A stretch of DNA of 64,000 bases. Source: an uncultured Prochlorococcus sp. GTDB taxonomy: Bacteria; Cyanobacteriota; Cyanobacteriia; PCC-6307; Cyanobiaceae. The notes under the pieces are model-generated. The model was not told the DNA's origin. It worked only from the letters and a program-made list of their open reading frames with translations, and made no database searches. The stretch spans positions 1 to 64,000 of the forward strand of contig CACGBT010000007.1 of the NCBI GenBank assembly GCA_902571335.1, written 5' to 3'. A program made the position numbers and the translations under genes. This document shows positions 8,372-13,315 of this stretch, in pieces; within the stretch, counting starts at the first letter, position 1; each line of letters starts with the position of its first letter.

Positions 8372-8397
8372 GCATAATTTATCTAGATAAATTATGC
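8372..8397. promoter_or_regulatory. Perfect 26-bp palindrome, candidate operator
   Basis: Half-site GCATAATTTATCT (8372-8384) is followed with no spacer by its exact reverse complement AGATAAATTATGC (8385-8397). It lies 24 bp before the ATG of the operon at 8422. A TATAAA box at 8402-8407 lies just downstream, so the palindrome would overlap the -35 area. No T-run follows, so it is not an ordinary terminator. I infer a dimeric regulator site; the regulator is unknown. Confidence 0.6.
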
Positions 8398-8421: not shown

Positions 8422-8565
8422 ATGAGTGGAGATTATGAGACACTAGAAATAAATCAACCAAATATCACATATTTTCAGAAACGGACCGAAAATAATACAG
8501 AATGGTTAGATGAATTAATCAACCAAATTGAAAATATGAAAAACAATATATCCAAATCTGCTTAA
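8422..8565 (+). CDS. Hypothetical protein, first gene of the metal/thiol operon (47 aa)
   Basis: ATG at 8422 follows an unusually strong ribosome-binding site (AGGGGGAA). The protein is soluble and acidic (MSGDYETLEINQPNITYF, NTEWLDELINQIENMK) with a C-terminal helix. Its stop TAA at 8563-8565 overlaps the ATG of the next gene by one base, so translation is coupled. No family recognised. Confidence 0.6.
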   Translation: MSGDYETLEINQPNITYFQKRTENNTEWLDELINQIENMKNNISKSA

Positions 8566-8681
8566 TGACAGAAAAAGAGTTGAAGGAATTAGAGAAATTT
8601 GCAAAAGAAAATGGATACAATGACGAGCTAAAAGATATATATTTAAGGGATGTTATTGACAGAAATAAAGAATACGAATGA
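8565..8681 (+). CDS. Hypothetical 38-residue protein of the same operon
   Basis: The start overlaps the previous stop (TAATG) and the stop overlaps the next start (ATGA at 8678). The product is a charged helix pair (TEKELKELEKFAKENGYND). The double overlap is the best evidence that this tiny frame is translated. Function unknown. Confidence 0.6.
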   Translation: MTEKELKELEKFAKENGYNDELKDIYLRDVIDRNKEYE

Positions 8682-8908
8682 GCTCAAATTTTCGACCAAA
8701 CATTTTATTAGCTACAAACATTCTTTTAGTTATTGGTACTTTTGCAATTGCTTTAAAGATTACTCCAATAGCAAAGGTATATCAGGAAAAAAATTTATGT
8801 ATTAAATATTTAAAACATCAAATAGATCGAGAAAAACTTATCAAAAGACTAAAAATAGTTAAACAAGCAAATCCATCTAGTATTTGTGATTCTGTCCTTA
8901 AAAGTTAA
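8678..8908 (+). CDS. Single-span membrane protein with two cysteines (76 aa)
   Basis: Residues about 8-28 form one membrane helix (ILLATNILLVIGTFAIALKI). The following domain holds two cysteines (in NLCIKYL at about 41 and SSICDS at about 70) with helical segments between, and probably lies in the periplasm. It overlaps the gene before it by 4 bp and ends 2 bp before the MauE-like gene. The cysteine pair and the operon suggest a redox or metal-handling role (inference). Confidence 0.62.
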   Translation: MSSNFRPNILLATNILLVIGTFAIALKITPIAKVYQEKNLCIKYLKHQIDREKLIKRLKIVKQANPSSICDSVLKS

Positions 8909-8910
8909 AA

Positions 8911-9363
8911 ATGAAGATTAAGTCATTTACCCCCTTAATTGCAGTCTTTGGTACTTCATTTTTAATAACTATTACATTGCTTAAAAGTTTCCAAATTTAT
9001 ATGGGTATATCAATTTGTCTTTTAGCAATGCTTAAGCTTATGGATATCGAAGCTTTTGGAACAAGTTATAAGAAATATGATTTAATATCTTCTCAATTTG
9101 ATAACTGGAAATATATTTATCCTTTTTGCGAATTATTAATTGGAATAAGTTTTCTTAATTCTTCTCCACCGCCTTTAATTATTGTTATCGCACTAGTATT
9201 AGGAATTTCTGGAATGATTTCAGTATTTAAGGCTGTTTATTTGGATAAATTAAAATTAAATTGTGCATGTATCGGTGGATATGCAAAAACTCCTTTGGGA
9301 GTTATTAGTTTTATCGAAAATCTTTTAATGGCAATTATGAGTTTCTTGATTTTGTTTAAATAG
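8911..9363 (+). CDS. MauE/DoxX-like redox-associated membrane protein
   Basis: The 150-residue protein has four predicted membrane helices and the layout of the MauE/DoxX-like family: MLKLMDIEAFGTSYKKYDL, then YIYPFCELLIGISF, then NCACIGG (Cys118, Cys120) with TPLG. Members supply or relay thiol redox for periplasmic partners, often beside heavy-metal proteins. Cys73 in PFCELL may also take part. Start 2 bp after the preceding gene. The family call is by motif memory, not a search. Confidence 0.7.
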   Translation: MKIKSFTPLIAVFGTSFLITITLLKSFQIYMGISICLLAMLKLMDIEAFGTSYKKYDLISSQFDNWKYIYPFCELLIGISFLNSSPPPLIIVIALVLGISGMISVFKAVYLDKLKLNCACIGGYAKTPLGVISFIENLLMAIMSFLILFK

Positions 9364-9424
9364 CAACTTTATAAATTTTCAATTATGGTTGATTTAAATA
9401 TTCAAAAATAATGTATTAATTGTT

Positions 9425-9943
9425 ATGGCTTCTAATAAAAAATCTAATAAAAAAAGATTTTTAAATACTCTAATTTTTTCTGGAATCCTTTTTACAAATA
9501 TAATTAATCCAAATAAGAGTATTGCTTTAACTCAAGAAATTATAGATATTCCAAAAGTTGTTTCTTACAGATCAGAATCATGTGGTTGTTGCAAAAAATG
9601 GATCAATCATTTAAGAGATAATGGATTAGAAGTTGTTGATAATATTCTTGAAGATGTTTCAGTAATGAAAAACAAATATCAAATTCCCAATAATTTGAGA
9701 TCATGTCACTCTGCTCAAATAGCTAACTATATAGTTGAAGGACATGTTCCGATTGAATCAATCAACAAACTTTTTAGAGAAAAACCAAATATCAATGGGA
9801 TAGCTGTACCGGGCATGCCAATTGGCTCTCCAGGTATGGAAATGCATTCTCACGACTCACACTCTCATGATTATCAGAACTACAAAGTAGTTTCATTTAA
9901 TAAAACTGGCAAAACAAAAATATTTGATAAAATTTCTCATTAA
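9425..9943 (+). CDS. DUF411 metal-binding protein (CopG-like), secreted
   Basis: 172 residues. An N-terminal basic then hydrophobic segment (about 9-35, ending SIALT) is a likely signal peptide or anchor. The DUF411 core is clear: YRSESCGCCKKWINHL with CGCC at 53-56, then SCHSAQI (Cys94, His95), GHVPIESI, and PGMPIGSPGMEM at 129-140. It ends with a His-rich segment HSHDSHSHD (141-149). DUF411 proteins occur in copper-resistance operons. The cysteine cluster, methionines and histidines fit copper binding in the periplasm. Confidence 0.88.
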   Translation: MASNKKSNKKRFLNTLIFSGILFTNIINPNKSIALTQEIIDIPKVVSYRSESCGCCKKWINHLRDNGLEVVDNILEDVSVMKNKYQIPNNLRSCHSAQIANYIVEGHVPIESINKLFREKPNINGIAVPGMPIGSPGMEMHSHDSHSHDYQNYKVVSFNKTGKTKIFDKISH

Positions 9944-9965
9944 TACAAATACTTAATTTAAAATA

Positions 9966-10187
9966 ATGCATATTTTCCTTAGAAATCTAAAATTTTTTAT
10001 TTTTTTATTTTCCTTATTTCTAAATTTCAATAGTTATTTACATGCACATATGAGGGGTACATTTCTTTCTAAAGAGGACGCCGAAAATAGATCTTTAGAA
10101 CTTGGTTGCGAAGGAATACATAAGAACCAAGATAAATGGATGCCATGCAAAAACGAAAAAGAATTTCATATTTATTTGAGGAAATAA
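9966..10187 (+). CDS. DUF3721-like small secreted protein (73 aa)
   Basis: A signal peptide covers residues about 1-27 (hydrophobic FFIFLFSLFLNF, cut near LHA). The mature part has GTFLSKEDAENRSLELGCEG and IHKNQDKWMPCKNE, matching the DUF3721 pattern (GC.G.H ... WMPC). Cys48, His52 and Cys61 are candidate metal or disulfide residues. It follows the DUF411 gene by 22 bp and abuts the next start, so it belongs to the operon. Confidence 0.72.
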   Translation: MHIFLRNLKFFIFLFSLFLNFNSYLHAHMRGTFLSKEDAENRSLELGCEGIHKNQDKWMPCKNEKEFHIYLRK

Positions 10188-10448
10188 ATGGGGAAATTAA
10201 AAACCGATAAAAGAAAAATTCACAGAAAAATAACGGTAATTTCAGCAATCCCTTTACTAATTACTATTTCATCTGGGACTATTTATAGTATTCTTCAGCC
10301 ATTAGGGGTAGATGCTTTTTGGTTAATCAAATGGCATACAGGTAATTTTGGCATTATTAATTTGCAACCTTTCTACTCAATATTCCTTGGTATCGCATCA
10401 ATAATCTCTATAATATCTGGCCTAAGACTATTACAAAAAAGAACTTAG
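10188..10448 (+). CDS. PepSY-associated-type membrane protein (86 aa)
   Basis: The ATG directly follows the preceding TAA. Three membrane helices are predicted (about 17-37, 43-55 and 60-80). His12 in KRKIHRKI and His50 in KWHTGNFG are placed like the heme/metal-ligand histidines of PepSY-associated TM proteins. Likely an inner-membrane electron- or metal-handling subunit. It closes the seven-gene operon. Confidence 0.6.
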   Translation: MGKLKTDKRKIHRKITVISAIPLLITISSGTIYSILQPLGVDAFWLIKWHTGNFGIINLQPFYSIFLGIASIISIISGLRLLQKRT

Positions 10449-13084: not shown

Positions 13085-13315
13085 TTAATACTGAGGAATT
13101 CCCATACATTTTAAATAATTATTATCTGCTAAATCTAAAATTTGATTCCATTCTTCATGAGATGTTTCCAAATTATTTTTAAAATCTTTTTCGAATTTAA
13201 GAATACATCTTTTTTCTATATTTTCTGGAGAATTATAGTTTCTTAAAAAAGTAAAACTCAAATAGGATAATGATGAAAAAATTATAATTACTTTAGCAAT
13301 TCCATAACTATTCAT
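13085..13315 (-). CDS. Membrane-anchored hypothetical protein (76 aa)
   Basis: N-terminal helix (GIAKVIIIFSSLSYLSFTFL) then a soluble charged part with two cysteines (KRCILKFEKDF and YLKCMGIPQY). Possibly a signal-anchored periplasmic protein. It lies directly upstream of a DUF2839 gene with only 2 bp between them. Confidence 0.55.
   Translation of the reverse strand: MNSYGIAKVIIIFSSLSYLSFTFLRNYNSPENIEKRCILKFEKDFKNNLETSHEEWNQILDLADNNYLKCMGIPQY

Follow-up and report, generated by a model that had tools for sequence, protein, structure and literature searches.

A seven-gene run in an uncultured Prochlorococcus probably holds a slimmed, polymorphic variant of a known copper cluster

Introduction

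Copper tolerance in coastal Synechococcus is tied to genomic islands, and a role in the disulfide-linked maturation of cofactors is known for MauE families. Among the solved DUF411 proteins, 6wis has been identified as CopG (PMC7558416), and the copper-binding motifs of CopG and CutG (CxCC and M-X6-M) have been described (PMC7558416, PMC8456105). The DUF411 protein PA4714 is copper-responsive in P. aeruginosa (PMC6444534), and CutG, the CopG homologue of R. capsulatus, is not a major determinant of copper detoxification (PMC8456105). In Cupriavidus metallidurans, periplasmic Cu(I) oxidation has been proposed for the copper-linked operon GigPABT (PMC10304878). For the coastal strain Synechococcus CC9311, a review lists a 'membrane thioredoxin' gene among those induced by copper and reports that it contributes to resistance (PMC4284471), and another paper describes Prochlorococcus as the most copper-sensitive among the picophytoplankton compared (PMC13374865).

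Here we characterise a run of seven frames, A to G, at positions 8422-10448 of the window, by which we mean the whole stretch of 64,000 nucleotides analysed. It comes from an uncultured Prochlorococcus genome of 1,482,711 bases in 53 contigs (87% complete). A first-pass annotation had read the run as a seven-gene operon forming a compact copper or thiol-redox module in the periplasm, with three undescribed small subunits at its head.

Results

All seven forward-strand frames are real, intact and under purifying selection, with median pairwise dN/dS over 45-51 loci of 0.13, 0.22, 0.21 and 0.16 for A, B, C and D, and of 0.29, 0.25 and 0.22 for E, F and G. As first described, they follow one another head to tail with overlaps or short gaps: A and B share TAATG, B and C overlap by ATGA, F and G abut as TAAATG, and gaps of 2, 61 and 22 nt separate C from D, D from E and E from F, respectively. 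The cysteine, histidine and methionine motifs noticed at the outset (CGCC, NCAC, HSHDSHSHD and GMEMH) were all found, and the count of five membrane or exported proteins agrees with the hydrophobic segments seen by eye in C, D, E, F and G. The same seven frames were intact and in the same order in 67 of 97 related loci, a frequency biased by the make-up of the set, 80 loci of which had been found through D; because so many relatives keep this order, the gene run is more than chance. Nearly all of the best 80 genome-scan matches to D were from Prochlorococcus. As a functional unit of seven genes the operon did not survive comparison, since in other genomes A-B is split from C-G and D-E from C-F-G. 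A phage origin of the locus was rejected, as only two distant matches to phage records were obtained and none was confirmed in viral contigs. Elsewhere in the window, at 559-2067, open frames on the + strand contain repeated KISSTAYIPIANILIK-like units; these frames may lie antisense to the gene of a long, repetitive protein at the start of the contig.

Frame E (9425-9943, +) encodes an exported protein of 172 aa that scored 86.2 bits against Pfam DUF411 (cut-off 27) and matched the solved DUF411 structures 6wis and 6wje, the E-value for 6wis being 2e-28 with the single sequence and 5e-45 as a profile. Its alignment with CopG extends over the whole mature part and keeps the CxCC, Trp, SCH and M-X6-M elements, with the predicted copper ligands at C53-G-C55-C56 (the CGCC motif, 9581-9592, +) and at M131-X6-M138 (9815-9838, +; motif described in PMC8456105). 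Judged by this alignment, E is a CopG homologue with all of the described cluster ligands. Among Prochlorococcus-type sequences, CxCC was present in 79 of 80 and M-X6-M likewise in 79 of 80. A His-rich segment, HSHDSHSHD (9845-9871, +), sits beside the predicted copper-binding methionines, with HSHxSHSH directly after GSPGME; within the compared sets it is confined to the Prochlorococcus type, where all 80 sequences carry such a segment with at least three histidines, versus 0 of 29 of the Synechococcus type. One genome (G128) carries two CopG modules (L064, 9509-10027, and L074, 9624-10142): in the E copy that follows A-B the motifs are damaged (CRCC, SFH and PAM), while the other copy is intact, which looks like relaxed selection after duplication.

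The preceding frame, D (8911-9363, +), encodes a MauE-family membrane protein of 150 aa, an assignment made in the first-pass annotation and borne out by a Pfam MauE score of 38.1 bits (cut-off 27). In Synechococcus the homologue of D is fused to an N-terminal glutaredoxin domain. D shares 47-52% identity with the membrane half of these glutaredoxin-MauE fusions; the glutaredoxin domain is absent from D, which begins where the membrane half of the fusion begins, and the NCAC motif (9259-9270, +) is invariant across Prochlorococcus and Synechococcus. By homology, D corresponds to the membrane half of such a fusion. When charges and helices are counted by eye, the CxC pair of D falls on the cytoplasmic side, as does the fused glutaredoxin, and direct contact between D and E is therefore doubtful. 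An AlphaFold model of D (pLDDT 69, pTM 0.60) was too weak to settle the topology, and a fold search with D returned weak VKOR matches among other membrane proteins, the best at an E-value of 0.07 and none at 0.001. D is broken in some strains in which E-F-G remains, among them genome G313, where stops interrupt it.

Downstream of E, frame F (9966-10187, +; 73 aa) encodes an exported protein whose DUF3721 assignment was upheld by Pfam at 59 bits (cut-off 27), with C48, H52 and C61 invariant. DUF3721 occurs in 184 of 200 genus genomes, often in several copies; further copies lie, for example, at G100:C1:105374-105965 and G103:C4:68084-68681, and some are 145-147 aa long and in tandem with a shorter frame. 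In the E-G interval of another genome (G018; L009 1780-2354), a divergent DUF3721 protein (56% identical) replaces F, and G starts about 100 bases later. Frame G itself (10188-10448, +; 86 aa) has two hydrophobic helices and invariant histidines at positions 12 and 50. Its initial description as PepSY-like stands to the extent of a sub-threshold similarity to Pfam PepSY_TM (19.3 bits against a cut-off of 28.8, covering only the last 41 profile positions; its relatives reached 3e-5 at best, likewise below cut-off), and falls short in that Pfam detected no PepSY domain in G. Profile searches with F and G returned no relative of solved structure.

To place D-E-F-G in context, we compared gene neighbourhoods in relatives. 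Three Synechococcus loci (L084, L086 and L088) each hold E, the glutaredoxin-MauE fusion corresponding to D, F and G, together with a MerR-type regulator and a DUF305 protein; RND and two-component genes lie near the clusters of L084 and L088, and a multicopper oxidase is present in L084 and L086, Pfam having been run mainly on L084 and the counterparts in L086 and L088 recognised by similarity. Glutaredoxin-MauE adjoins DUF411 in several Synechococcus genomes and F-G in others, and the adjacencies E-D, F-G and D-F-G recur separately. On the Sphingomonas plasmid pR1b, a single stretch contains RND genes, a two-component system, MerR, glutaredoxin-MauE, DUF411, two DUF305 proteins, a PepSY protein, CopB and a multicopper oxidase. 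A Picosynechococcus plasmid combines CopB, a multicopper oxidase, a two-component system and a MerR-type regulator with the fusion, and on plasmids of Acaryochloris and Gloeocapsa the fusion adjoins RND genes and a metal-responsive regulator. A genetic link of the E family to multicopper oxidase, CopA or CusCBA, as is usual for CopG, is present in L084, L086 and pR1b and was not seen in the 87%-complete source genome. No Cu-oxidase or ACR_tran match was obtained in that genome, so the usual CopG partners were not found in it; one frame with an HMA domain, of about 775 aa, has the size of a P-type ATPase. In another genus of the same family (L090 and L091), E-F-G are adjacent. Within L090 6128-10278, an ArsR-like regulator and an ACR3-like transporter, both identified by eye, stand about 2 kb away from E-F-G. 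The literature searched yielded no copper transcriptome covering these genes.

The two frames at the head of the run, A (8422-8565, +; 47 aa) and B (8565-8681, +; 38 aa), match no Pfam family. A belongs to a multi-copy family present in 77 of 81 genus genomes, also in those without DUF411; the A-B pair occupies the same place in DUF411-negative genomes, and in G024 it lies 27 kb away from C-D-E-F-G. Given their occurrence without DUF411 and this separation, A and B are residents of the locus and not dedicated subunits, and we ruled them out as parts of the module; from their distribution they are probably bystanders on the same putative transcript. The proposal of three undescribed subunits at the module head accordingly fails for these two. 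Small frames are not missing beside DUF411 in relatives, an absence that the proposal had named as evidence against itself; their presence is, however, not specific to DUF411. About 25 nt upstream of A, at window 8372-8397, lies a perfect 26-bp palindrome, GCATAATTTATCTAGATAAATTATGC, with 0 expected by chance. The right half is strongly conserved upstream of A in relatives and the left arm is imperfect; as the palindrome also precedes A with or without D-E, we rejected it as a metal operator.

The third small frame, C (8678-8908, +; 76 aa), likewise matches no Pfam family. It has one hydrophobic segment and two cysteines, at positions 41 and 70 (29 residues apart); these belong to a near-invariant C-terminal part, the hydrophobic part being variable. 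C was detected in 127 of 200 genus genomes at strong E-values (133 at 0.001 or better), and it accompanied DUF411 in 85 of 91 positive genomes and occurred in 42 negative ones, a Fisher odds ratio of 22.6 computed on genomes that are often incomplete and not independent of one another. With C kept in those 42 genomes and C-F-G retained in the sampled loci lacking D-E, its role as head of a D-E unit only was discarded: it accompanies F-G even where D-E is gone. Neither the CXXXC (or CXXC) motif nor the C-terminal proline (PP) motif of CutF is present in C. An AlphaFold model (pLDDT 67, pTM 0.29) was too weak to settle the cysteine pair; C is probably a membrane-anchored accessory protein whose two cysteines are joined by a disulfide or a metal. 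On the opposite strand, a further 76-aa protein, encoded at window 13085-13315 (-), is C-like in layout, with two cysteines and a single hydrophobic segment, and has no Pfam match.

Whole-genome searches placed DUF411 in 91 of 200 genus genomes. In 13 DUF411-negative loci, window base 8913 is joined directly to 9955, giving A-B-C-F-G without D-E; the missing two-gene segment corresponds to 8914-9954, with a junction ambiguous by about 12 nt, and all seven junctions that were read out are identical. In L271 the beginning of D and the end of E survive as remnants, so this locus represents an independent deletion; L269 lacks C-G and part of B. Mapped onto trees, the D-E-less state required 12 changes for the left flank (shuffled mean 12.1), 9 for the right flank, 10 for A-C and only 1 for F+G. 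The simplest reading of this pattern is one indel event, tied to the F-G allele and spread over many backgrounds by recombination. The adjacency of E-F-G in L090 and L091 favours deletion over insertion as the source of the D-E-less state, on trees that are unrooted.

Discussion

We conclude that the seven-gene run holds a slimmed, polymorphic variant of a known copper cluster, with copper handling as the probable function of D-E-F-G. On our reading (probability about 0.6), D-E-F-G, usually with C in front, would form a compact copper-handling module of the periplasm and membrane, a streamlined relative of the clusters found in Synechococcus and other bacteria. To that extent the copper or thiol-redox module proposed at first stands, through the CopG homology, the Synechococcus and plasmid context and the conserved ligands; A and B drop out of it.

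In such a module, exported E would take up periplasmic copper through CxCC and M-X6-M, with the His-rich segment as a possible extra collecting or docking site, and would interconvert Cu(I) and Cu(II), the activity suggested for CopG. Through its CxC pair, D would maintain the proper redox state of the system's thiols, G with its two invariant histidines is a candidate membrane electron carrier, and F, with its cysteines and histidine, a candidate small copper or thiol partner in the periplasm. As neither an RND pump nor a multicopper oxidase was found in the genome, the module would act on periplasmic copper by buffering and redox detoxification, not by export.

The conserved cysteine motifs of both D and E, the role of MauE families in cofactor maturation and the VKOR matches of D would also fit a general thiol-disulfide module of the envelope, in which D and E make or repair disulfides of exported proteins and copper is incidental. 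We consider this unlikely, as the M-X6-M ligands are conserved beside CxCC, copper genes are the neighbours in Synechococcus and on plasmids, and the fold matches of D did not reach significance. The same neighbourhoods bear on a module serving another metal or metalloid (arsenic, mercury or zinc) through CopG-like thiols: several metals are bound by thiols and histidines, and the ArsR-like and ACR3-like genes near E-F-G in L090 point that way, but the linkage that recurs is to multicopper oxidase, CopB, MerR and RND genes and E keeps the copper ligands of CopG, which makes such a specificity improbable.

Streamlining raises a different question, namely whether the run is a decaying relic of a copper island with no present use. 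D-E is gone from many genomes, D is broken in some, and the regulators and pumps seen in clusters of the ancestral type are absent; against this, dN/dS stays at 0.13-0.29 over all frames and the His-rich segment is kept in 80 of 80 sequences, so that we regard decay as highly improbable. Slighter still is the chance that A, B and C serve as regulatory leaders, tuning the translation of D-E with copper, as CutF does in cutFOG. Small overlapping frames do head a CopG operon here, and C has two conserved cysteines; yet A-B occurs without D-E, C-F-G persists without it, and C lacks the CXXXC and proline motifs of CutF (PMC8456105).

The copper-handling reading of D-E-F-G can be extended, though only tentatively and with the odds against it, to a pump-free and oxidase-free copper defence of Prochlorococcus. 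This would be made up of a His-elaborated CopG, a glutaredoxin-free MauE protein, a DUF3721/PepSY_TM-like electron path and the accessory C, with D-E as an on/off trait moved by recombination. A minimal module of copper type in about half of the sampled genomes, with a clean presence or absence of D-E, would offer a natural experiment on copper tolerance. Since they travel with copper genes, functions are also hinted at for DUF3721, for the two-helix PepSY_TM-like family and for the membrane half of the glutaredoxin-MauE fusions, and the His-rich segment appears to be an elaboration of CopG.

Compared with CopG/CutG (DUF411, PF04214; 6wis and 6wje), Prochlorococcus E is alike in CxCC, Trp, SCH and M-X6-M, and differs in adding HSHxSHSH after GSPGME, in a genome that yielded neither a multicopper oxidase nor an RND pump. 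R. capsulatus cutFOG likewise is a tight operon that includes a CopG-family gene and opens with a small frame; there is no multicopper oxidase here, and the CXXXC and proline motifs of CutF are absent from C (PMC8456105). The Gig system resembles the present one in pairing a DoxX-like membrane protein of 3-4 helices (GigT) with a small exported Cys-containing protein (GigP), D and GigT being likened by description; it differs in that GigA and GigB have no counterparts here and the exported partner is of the CopG type. Comparable to D are the glutaredoxin-MauE fusions of copper clusters, for example those of Sphingomonas pR1b, the plasmid of Picosynechococcus sp. PCC 73109 and Synechococcus L084, L086 and L088. 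NCAC is common to the Synechococcus fusions and D, whereas D has no glutaredoxin and stands before E, the fusion following E in L086 and L088. The 'membrane thioredoxin' of CC9311 could be such a glutaredoxin-MauE fusion and hence a relative of D.
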